Translations under genes and position numbers: made by a program
The notes under the pieces: model-generated
Told to the model about the DNA's origin: nothing
What the model saw: the letters and a program-made list of their open reading frames with translations, nothing else
The model's database searches: none
Source of the DNA: a virus
DNA length: 22,083 nucleotides
Virus record (IMG/VR): IMGVR_UViG_3300031918_000161
Location: 1 to 22,083 of that record
Direction: 5' to 3' (one strand)
Part shown: in pieces, positions 7,643-21,932 of the stretch
Layout of the letters: every line of letters begins with the position of its first letter
Numbering within the stretch: the stretch's first letter is position 1

Positions 7643-9433
7643 ATGCCCCGTAACATATCTGGAGTAATGGTGTTGCCGACAGGGAATCCGGTGATTCCTG
7701 GCACACTTATTGAATCCACGTGGGCCAATCCCACAATGGCTGATTTGGCCAACGAAATAACTCAATCCCTGCCAAGGAACGGGGCGGCACCAATGACGGG
7801 ACCGTTGGTCCTTGCCCGTGACGGAATTCTGCCCAAGGAAGCCATAACAGTCGACCAACTCAGCGCCGCAGTATCTAGCAGCACCAACTACTTGCCAGCC
7901 GGGGCCGTTCAATATTTTGCCATGAACGCGGTGCCCACGGGTTGGCTGGAGGCAAACGGGTCGGCAATCAGCCGGACCACCTACGCCAATCTGTTCAGCA
8001 CAATTGGGGTTACCTACGGGGCTGGCAACGGAACCACCACTTTCAATTTGCCCGATTTGCGCGGCACTTTCATACGGGGCTTCGACAATGGGCGCGGGTC
8101 TGACCCCGGCAGAGGGTTCGGGACCATGCAGGACGGGGCCAACGCTCCCCACAACCACCCTTTGAGCGACCCCGGTCACGCCCACAGCGCCAGCAGTCCG
8201 GCCCACACCCACGGAATAAGCGATCCTGGCCATGCCCACGGAATAAGCGATCCTGGCCATACTCACGGCGTTTACGACCCCGGTCACGCTCACACATCAT
8301 ATGTTCCTGTCGGGGCCGGTAACGCAATTTCGTCTGGCTCGGAAGTAGGCCCAGGCGCTACAGGGGCGGCAGGTACTGGCATCGGGATATACGGGGCAGC
8401 GACCGGAGTTGGGGTGCAGGGAGCTTATTCCGGAGTGTCGGCTGCAGGAACAGCCGTTGGAGTAAGCGTCGCGGGGGCCGGTACCGGAATAACAGTTGCT
8501 TCTTCCGGATTGGAAGCCCGGCCAGCCAACATGGCCTTGATTGCGTGCATCAAAGCTTTTGGTGCCTTGCAGACTGATGGCTTGGGCACCATGGCCTTTC
8601 AAAACAAGGACGCGGTGCAGATTACTGGTGGCACTGGGGTGTTCTCGTCGCTGCAGAGCACCAAAACGCCCACAGAGCCTAACGATGTTGCCCGTCTAGC
8701 TGATATTGGGGGGTCCATTGCCGAGATTCTTTCCGACGATCCTCAAATCATCCTGGTGGACAACACTACTCCGTCCACCCCCATCCTGCGCATACAAACT
8801 AACGTCCCCCATGGGGCTTTGAAGTTAAACGCTTCCGGATTGGTGCCCCCGGCCTTGATATCGCTAGGGGGACTGAACTATCAGGGGCCATGGAACGCTC
8901 TTCCAGGGGTGTTGCCCGCTGGAACATTCACTGACGGGGACTTTTTCCAAATAACTACTGCAGGAACCCTGACTTTACGCACCCCAACAGGGGCGGTATC
9001 GCAGGTATGCGGAATTGGCGATAATATTGTTTGGTCATCACCCAATCCCGTGTACCCGGTGGCTGGGTTCTACTATTCCCCTGCTCCTATTCCCACTAAC
9101 GTGGTGACCAAGACCTCAGACACAGGGGCGATGCACCCGCCAGTAGGCGATACTTCACAGCGCCCTGTGTCACCCATTTATGGGGATGAACGCACGAATA
9201 GCGAATTGGGCGCTAAAGAGTGGTGGAACGGGACAAATTGGATTCCAACCGGTGGCGGTCAGATGCTCGGCCAAGCTCTTGTTAAAGCGATCCATTACAA
9301 CTCACAAACCATTGCAGAGAATCTAACTATTGCTGCTGGTACTAATGGTTTCTCAGCAGGTCCGAATATAACTATCTCACCGGGTTTTGAAGTAACGATT
9401 GAACCTGGAGCAAATTGGGTGATAACGTCATGA
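7643..9433 (+). CDS. Tail fibre with phage collar domain and His-rich repeats
   Basis: A protein of 596 residues behind an AGGAG site. Residues about 85-165 match the phage tail collar domain: the segment from AVQYFAMNAVPTGWLEANG through NLPDLRGTFIRGFDNG. Residues about 172-217 hold repeated HAH/HTH pairs in a DPGHAHGIS pattern; such HxH pairs bind iron along the axis of trimeric fibres (T4 gp37 and related needle domains). A Gly/Val repeat follows and ends in LEARPANMALIACIKAF, the usual end of the collar module. The last 60 residues carry the SAGPNITISPGFEVTIEPG anchor motif common at phage fibre C-termini. Base composition becomes AT-richer from about 9250, so the 3' end may belong to the imported cassette downstream. 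Confidence 0.88.
   Translation: MPRNISGVMVLPTGNPVIPGTLIESTWANPTMADLANEITQSLPRNGAAPMTGPLVLARDGILPKEAITVDQLSAAVSSSTNYLPAGAVQYFAMNAVPTGWLEANGSAISRTTYANLFSTIGVTYGAGNGTTTFNLPDLRGTFIRGFDNGRGSDPGRGFGTMQDGANAPHNHPLSDPGHAHSASSPAHTHGISDPGHAHGISDPGHTHGVYDPGHAHTSYVPVGAGNAISSGSEVGPGATGAAGTGIGIYGAATGVGVQGAYSGVSAAGTAVGVSVAGAGTGITVASSGLEARPANMALIACIKAFGALQTDGLGTMAFQNKDAVQITGGTGVFSSLQSTKTPTEPNDVARLADIGGSIAEILSDDPQIILVDNTTPSTPILRIQTNVPHGALKLNASGLVPPALISLGGLNYQGPWNALPGVLPAGTFTDGDFFQITTAGTLTLRTPTGAVSQVCGIGDNIVWSSPNPVYPVAGFYYSPAPIPTNVVTKTSDTGAMHPPVGDTSQRPVSPIYGDERTNSELGAKEWWNGTNWIPTGGGQMLGQALVKAIHYNSQTIAENLTIAAGTNGFSAGPNITISPGFEVTIEPGANWVITS
8213..8293 (+). repeat. Three tandem 27-bp repeats encoding His-rich fibre units
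   Basis: Three 27-base units (8213-8239, 8240-8266, 8267-8293) inside the fibre gene. The first two differ at two positions within GGAATAAGCGATCCTGGCCA-type units; the third is diverged. Each encodes nine residues ending in HxH. A related, interrupted copy lies at about 8165-8212. The length is a multiple of three, so changes in copy number would keep the reading frame. Confidence 0.9.
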
Positions 9434-13943: not shown

Positions 13944-14092
13944 GGCCAATAGCTCCCAATGATTGCCGCCAGAAACGCCGCGACAGCCCAGAACGCGGCT
14001 TGTGCCTTGGTCGGCATGCCGTTATCTGCTCCGTCATAGAACGGCACCTCAGGGTGCGGGTCTTTGTTGACGAATTTGGTGAACCTCTTCAT
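13940..14092 (-). CDS. Small one-TM membrane protein, 50 residues
   Basis: A 50-residue protein starting at ATG 14092, with GGAGAAGGAG upstream and an ATGA overlap with the preceding stop; a longer frame from 14206 lies inside the neighbouring gene. The first half is polar (MKRFTKFVNKDPHPEVPFYD). The second half is a single membrane segment (KAQAAFWAVAAFLAAIIGSY) ending at the C-terminus. This is a tail-anchored topology. Function unknown. Confidence 0.65.
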   Translation of the reverse strand: MKRFTKFVNKDPHPEVPFYDGADNGMPTKAQAAFWAVAAFLAAIIGSYWP

Positions 14093-14355
14093 TGATACTT
14101 CTCCTTCTCCAAAATATTGACAATGAGGGTCGCGTAGCCAGCGATGTCTTGCCAAGTGTCCGACTTGTTCGGGTTTCCGCAAGCAATCCGCGAAAGTTTC
14201 GTGCAAATCATATCGACAGATTCCTGCTGGGCGAAATTCAAGGAGGACGTGCCAGTATTCATTACGTTTTTCAGGTTTTGCGCAACGCGGGACATGTACT
14301 CATAATCACCGTAATCGCCGCCCCTGTTTTCTAGTACTTCTTCAGTTGTTGCCAT
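14089..14355 (-). CDS. DUF6378-like phage protein
   Basis: A protein of 88 residues, GGGAGGT just upstream of the ATG. It shows the layout I associate with DUF6378: an N-terminal ENRGGDYGDYEY segment, a central helix (QQESVDMICTKLSRIACGNP) and a C-terminal helix starting DTWQDIAGYATLIVNIL. The family is common in phages and has no established function. The helical arrangement with Asp in the last helix recalls all-alpha NTP pyrophosphatases, but I do not see their EExxE motif. It lies in the transcript downstream of the Z genes. Confidence 0.72.
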   Translation of the reverse strand: MATTEEVLENRGGDYGDYEYMSRVAQNLKNVMNTGTSSLNFAQQESVDMICTKLSRIACGNPNKSDTWQDIAGYATLIVNILEKEKYQ

Positions 14356-14770
14356 AACACCTCCCTGGTCGTTTGATTATGCTCAAAAATTGTGCTGCCG
14401 GTATCTCTCCCTGCCAGATCGCCGCAGCATGTCTTAGCGCGTTTTCCTGATGAGGCTCGGCTCGGAGGCTGGCGGCGGCGGACCCCGGCACGATGATAAA
14501 AAGGTCGTCATACTGTATCAAAAACAGCGGGTATCCGCCAGCCTTAATCCGTTCTTCGAACCATATTTTCTGTGCGGCCCGCACTTCAATTTCCGGCCCG
14601 CACTTCAACTCCAACCAACCGTCTACCCCGCAATAGCAATAATTCAGATCGGGGATTCCGATTGCTGTGTCGTGGCTCTCAACCCACGATATGTGGAGGC
14701 GGGTATCCTTCATTGACGCGACGACACGTTTCACGGTCTGCCGCAAGGCGCGTTCTTTCTTCGATAGCAT
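14342..14770 (-). CDS. PD-(D/E)XK nuclease, VRR-NUC-like
   Basis: A protein of 142 residues starting at ATG 14770 behind AGGAG at five bases. The nuclease core is clear: G38-I-P-D41 then W-L-E54-L-K56 (PD...ExK) and RAAQKIWFEERIKAGGYPLF, with the Gln typical of VRR-NUC and related resolvase-like enzymes. Such small phage nucleases act on branched DNA or nick DNA. The gene overlaps the upstream datZ by 92 bases, an unusually long overlap. It could serve recombination, replication or host DNA breakdown. A role tied to the modified genome is only speculation. Confidence 0.8.
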   Translation of the reverse strand: MLSKKERALRQTVKRVVASMKDTRLHISWVESHDTAIGIPDLNYCYCGVDGWLELKCGPEIEVRAAQKIWFEERIKAGGYPLFLIQYDDLFIIVPGSAAASLRAEPHQENALRHAAAIWQGEIPAAQFLSIIKRPGRCYGNN

Positions 14771-15278
14771 CGCTGCTCCTGAATCTGATATATGCTAATG
14801 TCCTGACCGCCGCCGTCCGCAGGTCTTCGGATGCCTCGTCGAGGTAGGTCCGTAACCTCTCGTCGACCTCTACCACAGCCGATCTGCCACGGGTGCCCGT
14901 CGCATGCTCGGTTATGAAAATAAGGTTCTCTATCAAGTCAGCAGCTTTTATTATCCTGGCCACTTTATCGATGGGGGCTTGCTCTCCAATATGGTCGTCC
15001 TGGTAATTGTCTGGATCGAACCCCGCTGCCTTCATGCCGCGCTTGGTGGGAGTGGGGATGTCGCCAGTGTAGGACTCTTTGACGTCGTGGATCAGCGCGA
15101 AGTAGCAAACAGTCTTCTCGTCGATGCCAGGGACGTTGAACATCCTCTTACGGATTTCCATGGCGATCATCGCCACCCCGAAACTATGGCTGGCGACGGT
15201 ACTTTCCCTGTCAGTGCCAACCATAGTCCAGCGCTTGACGTACTGACAGTCCATAAGGACGTCAATTGGCGTTTTCAT
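14679..15278 (-). CDS. datZ: HD-domain dATP triphosphohydrolase (DatZ-like)
   Basis: A protein of 199 residues of the YfbR-like HD phosphohydrolase group. Visible residues: R16-W17, the STVASHSFGVA segment with H31, the H64-D65 pair in ALIHDVKESYTGDIPTPTKR with E68 and D73, and the last Asp at 114 (KAADLIEN). In Z-genome phages the enzyme of this fold is DatZ, which removes all three phosphates from dATP so that adenine is kept out of the genome. Its location right after mazZ and purZ (17-base overlap with mazZ) supports that role. Alone, the sequence would fit a 5'-deoxynucleotidase of the same fold. Confidence 0.82.
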   Translation of the reverse strand: MKTPIDVLMDCQYVKRWTMVGTDRESTVASHSFGVAMIAMEIRKRMFNVPGIDEKTVCYFALIHDVKESYTGDIPTPTKRGMKAAGFDPDNYQDDHIGEQAPIDKVARIIKAADLIENLIFITEHATGTRGRSAVVEVDERLRTYLDEASEDLRTAAVRTLAYIRFRSSDAIEERTRLAADRETCRRVNEGYPPPHIVG

Positions 15279-15570
15279 GTTTCAAAGCCCCCTTCTGGGA
15301 TTTCCATTCTCTGGTCATGTTGATTTTCATTTTCTTGTCGAATTCCGCTTCCAGGTCTATTTCGAGCAGGTAAGCAACATCAACGAGAAGGATCAAAATG
15401 TCAGCACACTCTTGGCCAGCATCGCCGTCTTTCATGTAAATAGAGTGTTGCAACTCGGCCACTTCTTCGGCCAATTTGATCGCCGTGTTCATCGGGTCCC
15501 TGAACCGGTCCGGCAATAGCGGACTGATCCAGTCGACCACGATTTTAGCCATCGTGTCGACTGATTTCAT
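15262..15570 (-). CDS. mazZ: MazG-like nucleotide pyrophosphohydrolase (MazZ-like)
   Basis: A protein of 102 residues, a single MazG-type all-alpha domain. The metal-binding residues are present: E35, E36 and E39 in KLAEEVAELQHSIY, and E54 with D57 in GQECADILILLVD, followed by the usual DLEAEFDKKMKINMTREW end. In Z-genome phages MazZ converts dGTP to dGMP, the substrate of PurZ. The start at 15570 has GAGG nine bases upstream, lying across the end of purZ. Only one base separates it from the purZ stop. Its assignment as MazZ rather than a general MazG comes from this context. Confidence 0.83.
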   Translation of the reverse strand: MKSVDTMAKIVVDWISPLLPDRFRDPMNTAIKLAEEVAELQHSIYMKDGDAGQECADILILLVDVAYLLEIDLEAEFDKKMKINMTREWKSQKGALKHENAN

Positions 15571-15571
15571 T

Positions 15572-16606
15572 TTAGTTTACCTCGGCAATATCAGCTGGGA
15601 GGGGGCCGCTGCCGATATAGCCAACGCCCCCGCAACCAATCTCTGCGGCCACATCGTCAATAACGTCTACGGCAACCATGCTAGCCGCCTCATTGTACTG
15701 CGCAAAGTTCAGGAACACCGCCGTAGGGTGTGTCATGATCATCGCTTCGCGAATTTGCAAAGCCGAAAAGCTGGCTACGCGGCGAATTCGTTGGGTGACT
15801 GTGGTCAGTTCAGGCTCGACGCCAAGAGCCTCGAACGTGGTTTCGATCTGATCGTCGTACCATTCGCCGCTGAATCCGTCTGTAGTATTGCCGACGCGGA
15901 TCGGGTGAACGCGCGCACAGCCGAACGTGTCGCGAAGCCACGCAATCGGCAAATTCGCGTCAGCCAGAACCCGACCAACGGTGCAATCACGGCTGGTGCA
16001 ATAGGGATAAAACCCGCTGCTCAAGCCCAGCGAATAGCCCTGGCTACCTTCAACAAGAATGCTGCTCTTGTTGCCCATTATTTCGAGCCATTCGGTCTGA
16101 TTGACGACCCGTACCGGGCCAAATTGGCCTGGGCCAGATTCAAGGGCTACCGACCAATCCTTAGCTATTGCCTTCGGCAGGCGGCGAATCTTGTCGATCA
16201 AGGCTTCGGCGCTGCCCTGCATGGTGCTGGAAATCCGGCTGAGCGTCGATGCCTCGGTCGTCTTGTGAATGTCCTGCGCAACACACGCCGCCTCGTGAAT
16301 GATTAGCACCAAGTCGCTGCGGTATTCGCAAACGGCTTTCCACTCGTCCATCAAACGGTTGATGTAGAAAACTGCGCCGGGGCCGATGCCGATTACCTTG
16401 AGTTCGCTGCCAAAGATGGCAGATGGCAGCACCTTGTGAATAAATTTTTCGCCGGTATCGGGCGAGTACGCCGTATGGCCGGCATTGGGGGCGTTACAGC
16501 TAATGACCGCCTCGTATCCCTTTTTGACCCCCAGATATCCGGACAGCAACCCCTTGCCGGTGCTGCCGAATTGAAGGTCAACCAGTACATCAATCTTGCG
16601 TTCCAT
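15572..16606 (-). CDS. purZ: PurZ, 2-aminoadenylosuccinate synthetase of the Z-genome pathway
   Basis: A protein of 344 residues of the PurA (adenylosuccinate synthetase) family, shorter than the roughly 430 residues of bacterial PurA. The N-terminal loop reads LQFGSTGKGLLS, where cellular PurA has GDEGKGK: the catalytic Asp is Ser15. This replacement is the known hallmark of phage PurZ, which joins dGMP and aspartate using ATP to make the precursor of 2-aminoadenine. NAGHT (H44), GIGPGAVFYINRL and VEGSQGYSLGLSSGFYPYCT are the other conserved blocks. GGAG lies eight bases before the ATG, about 40 bases below a strong promoter. The host PurB and kinases would finish dZTP. Confidence 0.93.
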   Translation of the reverse strand: MERKIDVLVDLQFGSTGKGLLSGYLGVKKGYEAVISCNAPNAGHTAYSPDTGEKFIHKVLPSAIFGSELKVIGIGPGAVFYINRLMDEWKAVCEYRSDLVLIIHEAACVAQDIHKTTEASTLSRISSTMQGSAEALIDKIRRLPKAIAKDWSVALESGPGQFGPVRVVNQTEWLEIMGNKSSILVEGSQGYSLGLSSGFYPYCTSRDCTVGRVLADANLPIAWLRDTFGCARVHPIRVGNTTDGFSGEWYDDQIETTFEALGVEPELTTVTQRIRRVASFSALQIREAMIMTHPTAVFLNFAQYNEAASMVAVDVIDDVAAEIGCGGVGYIGSGPLPADIAEVN

Positions 16607-16653
16607 TTTTGGTTCTCCAGTTTAGCGGCGAGGACATCCCCACCACAGATTCT

Positions 16654-16682
16654 ATTATACCACGCCCGGCACGTTCTGTCTA
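16654..16682 (-). promoter_or_regulatory. Near-consensus sigma70 promoter for the purZ operon
   Basis: On the minus strand, TAGACA (16682-16677) and TATAAT (16659-16654) are separated by exactly 17 bases, and the -10 is extended (TGG before TATAAT). Only one base differs from the -35 consensus. Transcription would begin near 16647, giving a leader of about 40 bases before purZ. It lies in one of the few true intergenic gaps of this strand (16607-16696). Confidence 0.82.
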
Positions 16683-16696
16683 TACCGCTCGTCGGA

Positions 16697-18916
16697 TCAG
16701 GACGTGCCCTGCTTCGCTTCTGCGTTCTTGTGCAATTCTTCGACTGGCGGGACCAGCAACAGACGCCCGGTGTCAGAGAAGCCGTATGCAAGTATGTTGG
16801 AGGAAAATACCGGCAGCGACAATACGTCCGCTACTGTTATGCGCACTTCCTTACACCACGCCCTATACTCGGCAAACAATTCGTACTTGAGCACTTTGCT
16901 AGGCCAATCCACGACATCGCCCACCATGTGCTCGGAGTCCAGGGTATCGAAACCCCCGCGCTGGATGCACTCGGAAATGAACTGCAACAAACTATCGTGC
17001 CTGTGGCTTAGTCTTCGTTGATCCAGCAGCCCTGCTGTGACCGGGGCCATTCGCAGGTTACTAGTTATCTTTCTGGCCTGTAGCAGGTGCAGCAGAGCGC
17101 CCAGCCCACCATTTTCTATCTCGTTCCACATGGCGTCGAAGTATGATTTATTCCCGGCCATGGCTTTGTTGCAATTCAGCACCATCCAGCGTCTGGATTG
17201 CGGTCCTGCCGGAATTATCCATTCCTCATTAGACGCTATTATCACGTGGGCCAAGTTGTCTATTTCAATGCTATCGATGCCTTTGGCTTCCTTGGTGACC
17301 CTTCGCTCTGATACCAACCCCTTAAGGATGTTTGCTGCTTTGCGGTCCCCCGGCCACAGCACCTCGTCCGCAAACACTACTACGCTGTCGCTGGTCAGGC
17401 TGTTAAATCTGGTGGTCAATCGTTCAGCGTCGATCAGGTGGGTGTAATGTCTGCCAAACAGACGGCCAAATGTGTCAGCCCATACGCCTTTGCCGCACCC
17501 TTCTACTCCTCGCAACACGATGCACGTTCCCTTTATGTCCCGACTGTTTTGTACGGCGTCTGCCATCCAGTCCAGCATCCACTCGTAAATCCCTCTCTCT
17601 CCGTCGCATATTACGTCCCTCATGTGTGTAAGGTAAAGTTCGCAAGAAGCGGTCGGGTCCGGAGTGGCTCCCCAGCCGTTCCACATGTTTAGCGTCCCTG
17701 CGGGTTCGTCCCCTTGGGGGTGTATGGCTATGTCGTAATACTCCCTGCGGTGCTCTGATGCTATCCATATCTCGCTCATGGCTTTTTCGATGTAGCCTGA
17801 TCGGGTCGGCATTTGAATTTTGATGTTCGCGGCCATCGTGGAGAATGACTGAACGCTCAGGAATCCGACTTTCTCTCCGTTGGCGTTCTTGTCGAAGGTG
17901 GCTATTACTGCGCTCTTCGATATTCTGACCAGAGCGAACTGCTTATTCATCTGCAACACGCGTTCTTCTACTTCTGCGTCCACGGATGGGTTGGACATAT
18001 CGCCCGGCAGCGGTCGCCACCCTGCTTCCTTGGCCATGAACAGCAGAGTTCCGAACCCAACCCTGCCATCTTCATCAAATGATTTCCACCGGAATCCACA
18101 TTCCCCCATTTTCCGTCTGGCCCCACCAGATGACCACTCGTCCCAAATCTCCAAGCCGTCATCGCCACAGGATGATTTTAGGGCCATGCCCACCCGCACC
18201 CAATCCTCATAGGACAGAGAATCTGGGTCAATCACCATCAACATTCGGTTGATTTGCGAGGTCGGCACTTCCGTTTTGACGTCTTCGGTTTTGCGCTTTT
18301 CTGACCACGGCTGGCCTAAGGCAGAGGACACCCATTCTGGCATGGGAGGGACTTCTCCTCCCTCTTCCCACACATAAGCTTTCCCGTTAAACACGGAAGG
18401 GAAAGCGACGATGTGGCCCGTGCAACGATCCGCTGTGCCGCCTCTGGTGTCAATGCCATTGGCAATTTTGCTGCTGCTGCTAGCGGCGTTGTCCTGCCAC
18501 TCGTATAGGTAGTGGAAACCCCCTGATGGTGTGGCTTGTCTTGGTCCATGCGGTAACGGTCCTTCCTTCGAGATTATCCTGGCCACTTCCTTGATGCCCG
18601 TCGTGCCCCCTACGGGCTTAGCGTCTATGTCTAGGGCCATCACACCGCCCTTAGTACCGCAGCCGATGCCTAGATTAAATCCGCGAAACTTTCCTCCTTC
18701 TCCGAACCATTTTTCAACTGTGGCTACTTTCTTGCTGGCAGACATGTAATTAATGCCGGTGTTCCCTGCCGGGAGCTTCTTGCTGTTCGGCTCCAGCGGC
18801 AGGACCGGAATGCCGGCCTTGGCATAGCAAATCGCACAATGGAGTATGGCATCATTGAACTCCATTTTCTTGGCTTTGTTTATTTCCAACAGATCCAACG
18901 CTATCGTATTATTCAC
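16697..18916 (-). CDS. Primase-polymerase / SF3-type helicase
   Basis: A protein of 739 residues. I prefer the GTG at 18916, which has GGGAGG upstream and overlaps the polymerase stop, over an in-frame ATG at 18943. Residues about 20-200 form a prim-pol domain: catalytic D96 and D98 in VMALDIDAKP, GGFHYLYEW, and GIDTRGG with GHIVAFPSVFNG. Residues about 232-302 look like PriCT-2 (LSYEDWVRVGMALKS). The C-terminal helicase has Walker A GVEGCGKG (about 470-477), Walker B VVVFADE (about 512-518), sensor VIIASNE and an Arg pair (SRRW). It would prime and unwind phage DNA. Phage S-2L, the classic Z-genome phage, also relies on a PrimPol. Confidence 0.87.
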   Translation of the reverse strand: MNNTIALDLLEINKAKKMEFNDAILHCAICYAKAGIPVLPLEPNSKKLPAGNTGINYMSASKKVATVEKWFGEGGKFRGFNLGIGCGTKGGVMALDIDAKPVGGTTGIKEVARIISKEGPLPHGPRQATPSGGFHYLYEWQDNAASSSSKIANGIDTRGGTADRCTGHIVAFPSVFNGKAYVWEEGGEVPPMPEWVSSALGQPWSEKRKTEDVKTEVPTSQINRMLMVIDPDSLSYEDWVRVGMALKSSCGDDGLEIWDEWSSGGARRKMGECGFRWKSFDEDGRVGFGTLLFMAKEAGWRPLPGDMSNPSVDAEVEERVLQMNKQFALVRISKSAVIATFDKNANGEKVGFLSVQSFSTMAANIKIQMPTRSGYIEKAMSEIWIASEHRREYYDIAIHPQGDEPAGTLNMWNGWGATPDPTASCELYLTHMRDVICDGERGIYEWMLDWMADAVQNSRDIKGTCIVLRGVEGCGKGVWADTFGRLFGRHYTHLIDAERLTTRFNSLTSDSVVVFADEVLWPGDRKAANILKGLVSERRVTKEAKGIDSIEIDNLAHVIIASNEEWIIPAGPQSRRWMVLNCNKAMAGNKSYFDAMWNEIENGGLGALLHLLQARKITSNLRMAPVTAGLLDQRRLSHRHDSLLQFISECIQRGGFDTLDSEHMVGDVVDWPSKVLKYELFAEYRAWCKEVRITVADVLSLPVFSSNILAYGFSDTGRLLLVPPVEELHKNAEAKQGTS

Positions 18917-20747
18917 CCTGCGCCTCCCAATAATCGGAACCAACCCCTTTTAGGTCCAGCACCAGCGGAACCCTGACCCACGGCACCGCTGCTCGAATCC
19001 CTTCCTGCAGAAGTTCCCTTAGGTCTTTCACGTTTGTCCCCTCTTTCACATTCATCTCGTATGAATCGTGGGTGTTCATTATTAGATGGTTGCCGCTACC
19101 GTCAAAAATGCGGTCACTGAGCAGCCACATTTCTTTGTTAATGTCTGCAGAGGTGGCTTGAATAGCCAGTCCTGACGCTTTGTATGTCTTGAATTTGTTG
19201 GGGAACCGCAGCCTTCGGCCATGCTTGGTGGCCACATATCCAAAAGACTCTGCTGTGGCCTTGGCCCGTTGCGCCAATTCTTTCACCCCCGGCACCCGCT
19301 CGTGATATTTGGCTATCACAGCCTCTGCCTCGTCGCCAGCCTTTTTGTACTTAACGACTTTGCCGGCTTTGTCGGAGAAACTGTTCCAGTCCCATGCCAT
19401 GCCCATTTTGTCGGCAATAGCTCCGTTCCCCGAATTGAAAATCATCGACAGATTCAACTGTTTGGCGTTGGCTTGTCCGCTGTAGGTGGCGTTGCGGGTC
19501 AGACCGGTCAGGTCAGCGACATATTGGTGCAGGTCCATCATTTCGTTGGCTGCGTATGCTTCGTTGATCACGGGATTGTTCACCAAGTGGGCAAACACCC
19601 TGACCTCGAAACTGTTCATGTCGTAAGCGGCCCACTGGCACCCCAACTCTGGCAGGAACACTGGCTTGACGATACTGGCCACCTTCTTGTTGCGGCTGGG
19701 TATTTGTTGCAGGGCTGGTGCGGTGTAAGATAGTCTGCCAGATCCGGTACCCGCATCTTCCCCCTTATTCTGGTTTATGTTGGGGTATACCCTGTCCCCC
19801 ACAGCATGCCCCAGCACGTGCCCACCCAGGAATGTATCCCTGGTCTTGGTCGTGGATCGAATTGTGAGGATCAACTGCGCTCTGCGGTCGTTTTCCATGC
19901 CTCGCAGCGCTTCTGCGTCCAACGATGGGTTGCCACTGTCTGTTTTTAACAGGTGATGCCCGTTGTCCGCAAACCACTCGCCCGTTTCGTCTTCTTTCGG
20001 AGCAAACAATTCCCGTGTTTGCTTGGGGCTGTTGACGTTTATTTCCTTGCCAATCAGTGCTGTTAACTCTTTCTGATCGGATTCGATCACCAGAGTCAAT
20101 CTGGCCATGGCTTGCTCGGCCTTTTTAAGGTCTACCCTGACCCCCCTGATTTCCGCCTTGACGATCGGGACGAACACCCGGCGCTCGAATTCGCAGATCC
20201 GCTGGATTCCCTGCCGAGCTATTTCTTCTTCCTGCCATTGCCACAGCCTCATGGTCAGCACGGCGTCTTTGATGGCGTATGGGCGAACTACTTCTGGAGG
20301 TGCCCGGTGCAAATTGGGCATCTGAACGGTTCTGGTGGCTCTGCCCCCAAAGATCTTGGCCAGTTCTGGGTATATGTCTTCTTTTCTTTCGCCTAGGTGC
20401 TTGTCGCACAGGTAGTCTAGGCTAAAACTATGTTCATGTTCGTTGATCAGACAGGCACGGGTTACAGTGTCGTCCATTCTGTCTAATGGCAGGTACAGCC
20501 CACTGGAGTCGGACATTTTATAGTCGAAGGATGCATTGTGGCAAATGACTGTGCCAGAGAATCGGCTCATTTCGTCATTAAACCAATCTGTAGCACCCGG
20601 CTCATGCCGAACGTCGTGATAACATGCTGTGCCATCAGGCAGAGCGATAGAGAAACCAAAAGCCCGATTAGTTGGCCAATTCAGGCCATCGGTTTCTGTA
20701 TCGAATGCTATCTGTTCGGCTTCGCTAAAGCGAGGCCAGGAGTTCAT
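18909..20747 (-). CDS. dpoZ: Family A DNA polymerase with 3'-5' exonuclease (DpoZ-like)
   Basis: A protein of 612 residues. The exonuclease has all three motifs: D16-T-E18, N71-x3-D75 (CHNASFDYKM) and Y157-x3-D161. The polymerase has TGSGRLSYTAPALQQIPSR, motif A with D376 and E381 (AAYDMNSFEVRVFAHL), motif B and motif C with H560-D561. Motif B is unusual: GQANAKQLNLSMIFNSG keeps the Lys but has Gln, Leu and Phe where E. coli Pol I has Arg754, Phe762 and Tyr766, and motif C reads HDS rather than HDE. DpoZ, the Z-phage family A polymerase, favours dZTP over dATP, partly through its exonuclease. The name here relies on co-occurrence with purZ. ATGA overlaps the upstream gene. Confidence 0.85.
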   Translation of the reverse strand: MNSWPRFSEAEQIAFDTETDGLNWPTNRAFGFSIALPDGTACYHDVRHEPGATDWFNDEMSRFSGTVICHNASFDYKMSDSSGLYLPLDRMDDTVTRACLINEHEHSFSLDYLCDKHLGERKEDIYPELAKIFGGRATRTVQMPNLHRAPPEVVRPYAIKDAVLTMRLWQWQEEEIARQGIQRICEFERRVFVPIVKAEIRGVRVDLKKAEQAMARLTLVIESDQKELTALIGKEINVNSPKQTRELFAPKEDETGEWFADNGHHLLKTDSGNPSLDAEALRGMENDRRAQLILTIRSTTKTRDTFLGGHVLGHAVGDRVYPNINQNKGEDAGTGSGRLSYTAPALQQIPSRNKKVASIVKPVFLPELGCQWAAYDMNSFEVRVFAHLVNNPVINEAYAANEMMDLHQYVADLTGLTRNATYSGQANAKQLNLSMIFNSGNGAIADKMGMAWDWNSFSDKAGKVVKYKKAGDEAEAVIAKYHERVPGVKELAQRAKATAESFGYVATKHGRRLRFPNKFKTYKASGLAIQATSADINKEMWLLSDRIFDGSGNHLIMNTHDSYEMNVKEGTNVKDLRELLQEGIRAAVPWVRVPLVLDLKGVGSDYWEAQGE

Positions 20748-20999: not shown

Positions 21000-21248
21000 C
21001 TACGATTTTCGATGCTGTTCCATGTGGTGTGGATGGCATAACCACATTACATCCAGCGGCTTTGAATAGTCCTCGTGATGGGCGTGGGCATCCGCTCCGC
21101 ACTTCTCGCAAGGTTGTTTCTCCAATCTTCCGTCGCGTACGGCGTTACTGACGGCATAGTGGGCGGCATAGACTTCCGGTCTTTCCTCCTTCATTCTGGC
21201 CGTAACCTTGGCCCCGCACCGAATGCATGATTTTTTGGGCGGTGTCAC
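21000..21248 (-). CDS. HNH-like zinc-binding protein, 82 residues
   Basis: An 82-residue protein that starts with GTG overlapping the SSB-like stop as GTGA. It contains C8-x2-C11 and C47-x2-C50 pairs and ends CEKCGADAHAHHEDYSKPLD, then VMWLCHPHHMEQH, giving the HH and C-x2-HH of an HNH-type fold. It may be a small endonuclease or a zinc-binding DNA protein. It shares this C-terminal module with the 139-residue protein at 21513-21932, two genes away. Confidence 0.7.
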   Translation of the reverse strand: MTPPKKSCIRCGAKVTARMKEERPEVYAAHYAVSNAVRDGRLEKQPCEKCGADAHAHHEDYSKPLDVMWLCHPHHMEQHRKS

Positions 21249-21523
21249 GCTACACCGTAGCTAAAAGGTATATCGTCGTCCAGATCGTCGACCATGTAAG
21301 GCTTCGGCTCTGGCGCTTTGACGTACTTGGCGTCCTTCTTTTCAAAAGACATTGACAAGAATTTGGACCCCGGATTCTTGGCGTTAGGCCCGGCTACTTT
21401 TATCCATCCGCTGGCCCACATTTCGACTCCATCGATGTTGGCGCTTCCGCGATAGTCGGGTTGCGCGTCGTTGGTTTTGTCATTCTTGAACATCACGCCT
21501 TTGTTAGTATTATCAAATGCCAT
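21245..21523 (-). CDS. SSB-like protein with DDDIPF motif
   Basis: A 92-residue protein. The ATG at 21523 has GGAG seven bases upstream; a longer frame from 21562 lies in the preceding gene. Residues about 8-60 are beta-rich and could be an OB-like fold (GSANIDGVEMWASGWIKVAG, then GSKFLSMSFEKKD). The C-terminal region is acidic and reads VDDLDDDIPFSYGVA. DDDIPF is the exact tip by which bacterial SSB recruits partner proteins, here followed by five more residues. Position upstream of the polymerase supports a single-strand binding role. The fold itself is not proven by sequence. Confidence 0.65.
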   Translation of the reverse strand: MAFDNTNKGVMFKNDKTNDAQPDYRGSANIDGVEMWASGWIKVAGPNAKNPGSKFLSMSFEKKDAKYVKAPEPKPYMVDDLDDDIPFSYGVA

Positions 21524-21932
21524 TATGAATCTCCAAATGGTGTTTCCTACATAACCACACAACGGATAGGGGTTCGTCGTAATTCGGATGGTGGCCTTCT
21601 GAGCTTAGACTTCCACAACAGAAGCAAGGAAGCTTAGCTAGCACCCCTGATCCTACGGCCTTTCTAACCATGTCGGCCAGATCATTGCCCTTAGTAACAA
21701 CTAAACGCCTTTCCTTTTTCGATGCGGCATTCTTTCGACCGGATCTGCGCTTATTAGTTGCCACTCTTTCAGGAGTTTTCTTGCCGGATTCCTTCACGTT
21801 TTCTCTATTGCACTCGACGCATATCCAATTAGAAGACAACCTCTCTGCTATGTGCCCGTAGATACAGGGCTTTCCCGTAAAATATCGAGAAAGCCCCCTG
21901 TCCAGAGCTTCTTTTCTGGACAGTTTATCCAT
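21513..21932 (-). CDS. HNH-like endonuclease, 139 residues
   Basis: A 139-residue protein, start overlapping the preceding stop as TAATG. The N-terminus has a zinc-binding type segment (GKPCIYGHIAERLSSNWICV, then ECNRE) often seen in phage HNH proteins, a basic middle (residues 50-80) and a C-terminal HNH-like module, CFCCGSLSSEGHHPNYDEPL followed by VVWLCRKHHLEIH. It may be a free-standing homing-type nuclease or a phage processing enzyme. The last 11 bases overlap the SSB-like gene. Confidence 0.72.
   Translation of the reverse strand: MDKLSRKEALDRGLSRYFTGKPCIYGHIAERLSSNWICVECNRENVKESGKKTPERVATNKRRSGRKNAASKKERRLVVTKGNDLADMVRKAVGSGVLAKLPCFCCGSLSSEGHHPNYDEPLSVVWLCRKHHLEIHNGI

Follow-up and report, generated by a model that had tools for sequence, protein, structure and literature searches.

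The roles of MazZ, PurZ, DatZ, and DpoZ, the enzymes by which some phages come to carry 2-aminoadenine (Z) for adenine, have been described in characterized relatives of the locus analyzed here (PMC8342488, PMC8065100, PMC8599892, PMC12884076). The DpoZ of phiVC8 discriminates against dATP (PMC8599892). The PrimPol of cyanophage S-2L is not conserved in other phages of the Z cluster (PMC8342488). According to the literature, Z phages usually encode both DpoZ and a PrimPol.

Gene Content and Order

The window, i.e., the whole stretch of DNA analyzed, is a 22,083-base virus record and represents a fragment from an uncultured phage. Genes for the tail and other virion parts, along with a spanin-like gene, lie on the plus strand, and replication and nucleotide genes occupy the minus strand from about 14.1 kb onward. 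Read 5′ to 3′, the minus-strand order is DpoZ (20747–18909), PrimPol-helicase (18916–16697), PurZ (16606–15572), MazZ (15570–15262), DatZ (15278–14679), a VRR-type nuclease (14770–14342), and a DUF6378 protein (14355–14089). This gene content and order, which are established directly, define a compact Z set of seven genes spanning 14089–20747 (−). The VRR-NUC-type nuclease (14342–14770, −; phrog_2165, 4e-14) follows datZ as in the phiVC8-type layout, and the DUF6378 protein (14089–14355, −; PF19905, 7e-9) ends the set. Both have a counterpart at the matching place in phiVC8, ZP6, BUCT555, K300, and Bm1, and the order of the two is kept in phiVC8, ZP6, and BUCT555. Upstream of dpoZ there is an SSB-like gene (21245–21562) with a small endonuclease-like gene on either side (21000–21248 and 21513–21932), both belonging to phrog_2340. 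No nucleotide match to the window was found in phage records. Judged by its sequence, the window is an uncultured lineage of the known phiVC8-type Z phages, with a PurZ at most 53% identical to that of any isolate.

A sequence-only reading of this DNA had proposed a complete Z-genome set at 14679–20747, made of a PurA-like synthetase, a MazG domain, an HD phosphohydrolase, an exonuclease-bearing family A polymerase next to them, and a PrimPol-helicase. These five genes are indeed present at the coordinates given, on the minus strand, with family matches far above chance, and their functional reading is well supported by family and PDB matches, residues, the PurZ tree, and gene order. Two details had to be revised: the set runs on to 14089, and the PrimPol has a better start. 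The latter protein (16697–18916, −) includes an AEP primase-polymerase domain (PF09250), PriCT_2 (PF08707), and the P4-type helicase DUF5906 (PF19263), with E values from 4e-21 to 7e-18. The GTG at 18916 appears more likely as its start than the TTG at 18943, because a Shine-Dalgarno sequence, GGGAGG, precedes it and it overlaps the stop codon of dpoZ.

The family A DNA polymerase with a 3′–5′ exonuclease domain (dpoZ, 18909–20747, −) is of the phiVC8 type. It scores 829.7 bits with the NCBIfam model DpoZ_1 (NF038380, cut-off 500) and 38 bits with the other DpoZ model, and it matches the crystal structure of phiVC8 DpoZ (7pbk) with 700 bits, where Klenow reaches about 102. The clade marks and the three insertions that serve as criteria for phiVC8-type DpoZ (PMC8599892), namely R440, L455, F459, G548, and S583 (phiVC8 numbering) and three insertion loops, are all present, as is D582. 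The exonuclease residues D16, E18, D75, and D161 are invariant among the relatives aligned. In the alignment, identity to the window protein is 52–58% in phiVC8, ZP6, and K300 and 53% in BUCT555.

The adjacency of DpoZ and PrimPol had been taken as unusual. This is wrong, as the two genes lie side by side in phiVC8, ZP6, BUCT555, and K300, and DpoZ, PrimPol, and PurZ are contiguous in 48 of the 97 loci with a PurZ that were drawn from phage records, IMG/VR, and GTDB contigs, a sample gathered by likeness to the window PurZ and thus no census of all Z phages. The collection of relatives needed an alignment scan, a single-sequence scan of viral contigs having returned only the virus itself. Such a pairing is what phiVC8-type loci normally show, and it has already been described; S-2L, with a PrimPol of another type, is the exception. 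The window PrimPol is of the phiVC8 type, being 39.5% identical to the phiVC8 primase (coverage 95%). A PrimPol of the S-2L kind was ruled out: the phiVC8-type profile misses the S-2L protein.

Predicted Z-Nucleotide Enzymes and Alternative Readings

The protein with the MazG domain (mazZ, 15262–15570, −) is a predicted dGTP pyrophosphohydrolase of type MazZ-1. Its sole PDB match is the MazZ of S-2L (7ody, E = 9e-11). Under the residue criteria for MazZ-1 (PMC8342488), it keeps all of E35, E38, E50, D53 (metal), I56, D60 (guanine), and R83 of S-2L MazZ; residue 53 is printed as E in that work, and the S-2L sequence has D53. MazZ-2, the type found in phiVC8, was ruled out, as a profile built from phiVC8 and ZP6 gives no match to the window MazZ at E ≤ 1e-3. 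MazZ-2 is carried by phiVC8, ZP6, and K300, where in the last an unannotated MazZ-2 reading frame lies between purZ and datZ (between 13026 and 13182). Because BUCT555, with a layout as in phiVC8, has MazZ-1, the mixture of this type with the phiVC8-type layout is already known.

The synthetase (purZ, 15572–16606, −), a predicted succino-aminodeoxyadenylate synthetase, belongs to the PurA superfamily (PF00709), and this membership would also suit an ordinary PurA, converting IMP to adenylosuccinate as a purine auxiliary gene in a phage with normal DNA. Yet the change from the catalytic Asp to Ser, already noticed in the sequence-only reading, is real: S15 of the window protein aligns with D13 of Escherichia coli PurA, and Ser stands there in 99 of the 99 PurZ and PurZ0 proteins aligned. 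The PurA equivalog models score at most 114 bits against cut-offs of at least 368, falling short by more than 250 bits. Against a PurZ stands the score with the NCBIfam PurZ model (NF038379), 287.5 bits (E = 1e-85), which is 12.5 bits below a 300-bit cut-off; this is a naming threshold rather than a biochemical feature, and is uncalibrated here on other PurZ. The protein matches phrog_1211 at 9e-68, and its best PDB matches are phiVC8 PurZ (6fm1) and then S-2L PurZ (7odx). The Ser at position 13 is also found in PurZ0 and would therefore fit a Z system of the PurZ0 type, like that of Wayne; however, positions 10, 16, and 206 are D, T, and R, the residues typical of PurZ, where the PurZ0 of Wayne and Archimedes have G, E, and S. 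Furthermore, the neighboring polymerase follows DpoZ_1 rather than the other DpoZ model (830 versus 38 bits), and no dUTPase-like gene was found beside the window purZ among domain and phrog family matches. The phylogeny that had been suggested as a check did not group the synthetase with PurA. In the maximum-likelihood tree, a quick tree where PurA is represented by one sequence on a long branch, the window PurZ joins the metagenome contig L009 (support 99), then L010 (99), and then a wider phage clade (97), inside the PurZ group and with both PurZ0 (Wayne, Archimedes) and PurA outside; this phylogenetic place, like the catalytic and clade residues, is established directly. On model scores, residues, and tree, a PurA or PurZ0 identity of the protein was rejected. 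Given also the linkage to DpoZ, MazZ, and DatZ, an ordinary PurA in a phage with normal DNA is extremely improbable, and a PurZ0-type system is marginally more so. On residues, tree, and context, the window synthetase is counted as a PurZ.

The HD-domain protein (datZ, 14679–15278, −), a predicted dATP triphosphohydrolase, matches phrog_7076, annotated as dATP triphosphohydrolase, at 3e-24. It keeps the metal and phosphate residues of DatZ, where positions 20, 22, and 79 may also carry conservative changes: the metal residues H34, H66, D67, E70, D75, and D119 of S-2L DatZ are present, as are R19, W20, P79, K81, and K116, and I22 is replaced by Met and Q29 by Ser. In S-2L DatZ, I22 confers adenine specificity, and Q29, A32, and G74 are strictly conserved among close DatZ, with a suggested structural role and no listing as catalytic (PMC8065100). 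The window protein retains A32 and G74; Q29 gives way to Ser in the window clade and to Asn in L011. The DatZ of the window, L009, L010, L011, and L013–L015 combine I22M with Q29S/N and E33S/T, a signature confined to this clade, and the remaining 81 of the 88 DatZ aligned have Q29. These changes would be consistent with a clade protein that is a broader nucleotidase and not a strict dATPase, hence with partial Z replacement. So would the resemblance to E. coli YfbR, a deoxynucleoside monophosphatase in which the active-site residues tested, except positions 22, 29, and 32, are also found. Because most of these residues are common to YfbR, they are alone no proof of dATPase activity; as they fail to separate DatZ from YfbR, synteny and profile score were used instead. 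A DatZ profile built without the window clade gives 141 bits for the window protein and 79 for YfbR, and the named tblastn neighbors of the former are mostly PurZ phages. From profile, linkage, and relatives, we infer that the window protein is a dATPase. Of the 88 DatZ, 13 have Met at position 22, among them those of ZP6 and further Z phages, the metal and phosphate residues are intact, and phiVC8 DpoZ itself selects against dATP (PMC8599892). Partial replacement is thus improbable, if less so than the two readings that concern the synthetase.

The preferred reading, which we hold with high confidence, is that the window comes from a phage of the phiVC8 type (phiVC8 and ZP6 being podoviruses) whose DNA would have Z for adenine, made by the enzymes listed. 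Its virion DNA very likely has 2-aminoadenine replacing adenine. In ordinary sequencing, Z is read as A. The activities of the individual enzymes, the presence of Z in the virion DNA, and the protection from restriction are predicted from characterized relatives, and the solved structures of four homologs match the window proteins by sequence. MazZ would turn dGTP into dGMP, from which PurZ, with aspartate, would make N6-succino-2-amino-dAMP, and host enzymes would complete dZTP. DatZ would meanwhile remove the triphosphate from dATP. The PrimPol-helicase would ensure unwinding and priming, and DpoZ would copy with a preference for dZTP, its exonuclease editing out A.

A Candidate Promoter and Unusual Z Loci

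The gap before purZ has 90 bases and contains a promoter-like site, predicted to be an extended −10 promoter of the sigma70 type (16654–16682, −; TAGACA-17-TATAAT, the −10 being preceded by TG) that lies 47 nt ahead of the purZ start codon. It has 11 of the 12 consensus bases plus the TG, and none of 200 shuffles was as good in the window. An extended −10, TATAAT or TATACT, is kept 35–49 nt before purZ in L009, L010, L012, and L013, with poorer −35 boxes (shuffle fractions of 0.005, 0.095, 0.0, and 0.04, respectively). The promoters of K300 and Bm1 are comparable to that of the window. Loci with such a site are those of the window clade, Bm1, L017, K300, and L045. BUCT555 and many other loci have no gap before purZ, and BUCT555 has no promoter-like site there. 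Most loci lack such a site, and the idea that Z phages in general have a promoter ahead of purZ was therefore rejected. Because the window has an extended −10 site in this gap and the −10 is kept in the clade, purZ, mazZ, datZ, and the VRR and DUF6378 genes are probably also transcribed from a host-type extended −10 promoter of their own.

One may speculate further, although we consider it rather unlikely, that the clade has a retuned system. Z-nucleotide synthesis would then be switched on by the host RNA polymerase at a strong, dedicated extended −10 promoter, uncoupled from the genes for replication, and the altered pocket region of the clade's DatZ (I22M, Q29S/N, E33S/T) would give this enzyme a substrate range differing from that of characterized DatZ. 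What is new here is small: the predicted promoter ahead of purZ, whose −10 the clade retains, and the clade-confined DatZ signature.

Some of the relatives have unusual arrangements. In mazZ, the published description is of a gene always present between purZ and datZ (PMC8342488). In nine phiVC8-type contigs (L016, L018, L020, L021, L034, L040, L043, L049, and L050), purZ overlaps datZ directly, seemingly without mazZ; no match to a MazG family or to the window MazZ was found in these whole contigs, several of them of 36–38 kb. In L045 (9050–9364), L066 (9055–9483), and L163 (1986–2321), a related small protein, phrog_2831, lies between purZ and datZ at the place of mazZ, and may be another type of dGTP pyrophosphohydrolase. 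In L087, a dATP/dGTP diphosphohydrolase N-terminal domain (PF18909) stands at this place (9067–9396), and DpoZ was not found in this 13.4-kb contig. The 119,931-base contig L047 has a PurZ (7914–8984) that clusters in the tree with those of phiVC8 and K300, and the gene for this PurZ overlaps a radical SAM gene; neither a family A polymerase nor a match to the window DatZ turned up anywhere in the contig. This may be a larger phage whose Z system lacks DpoZ, or its PurZ may serve another use.

Comparison with Known Z Phages

The closest isolate PurZ is that of Burkholderia phage Bm1 (53%, tblastn), and in the alignment the identity to the window PurZ is 51% in BUCT555 and 45–47% in phiVC8, ZP6, and K300. 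Among metagenomes, L008 (whole, 5,135 bases) encodes a PurZ identical to that of the window, and L009 one with 78% identity. Because L009 comes from the same metagenome as L008 (3300030010), two related Z phages are probably present in one habitat. The window and its metagenomic relatives add an uncultured lineage to the phages very likely using a non-standard base and make diverged DpoZ, PurZ, MazZ, and DatZ sequences available for enzyme work. Knowledge of the system itself is unchanged, since its enzymes, its layout, and the co-occurrence of DpoZ with PrimPol were already described.

Cyanophage S-2L shares with the window the purZ-mazZ-datZ cluster and the MazZ-1 type, but it is without DpoZ, and its PrimPol is of another type, located elsewhere in the genome, and not specific for Z. 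Bm1 resembles the window in its PurZ, its MazZ-1, and the extended −10 promoter before purZ, and differs by its 67.5-kb genome, its baseplate genes, and the lack of a PrimPol between DpoZ and PurZ. Stenotrophomonas phage BUCT555 has the gene order of the window and also MazZ-1, but no gap or promoter-like site before purZ, and its DatZ has Q29 instead of S29. Finally, phiVC8 (Enhodamvirus), ZP6 (Mareflavirus), and Vibrio phage K300 have MazZ-2 where the window has MazZ-1 and give no nucleotide match to it, yet their order of DpoZ, PrimPol, PurZ, MazZ, DatZ, VRR nuclease, and DUF6378 is identical. The phiVC8-type Z podophages and the window have in common a phiVC8-type DpoZ with its insertions and structural genes that converge on this set from the opposite strand.
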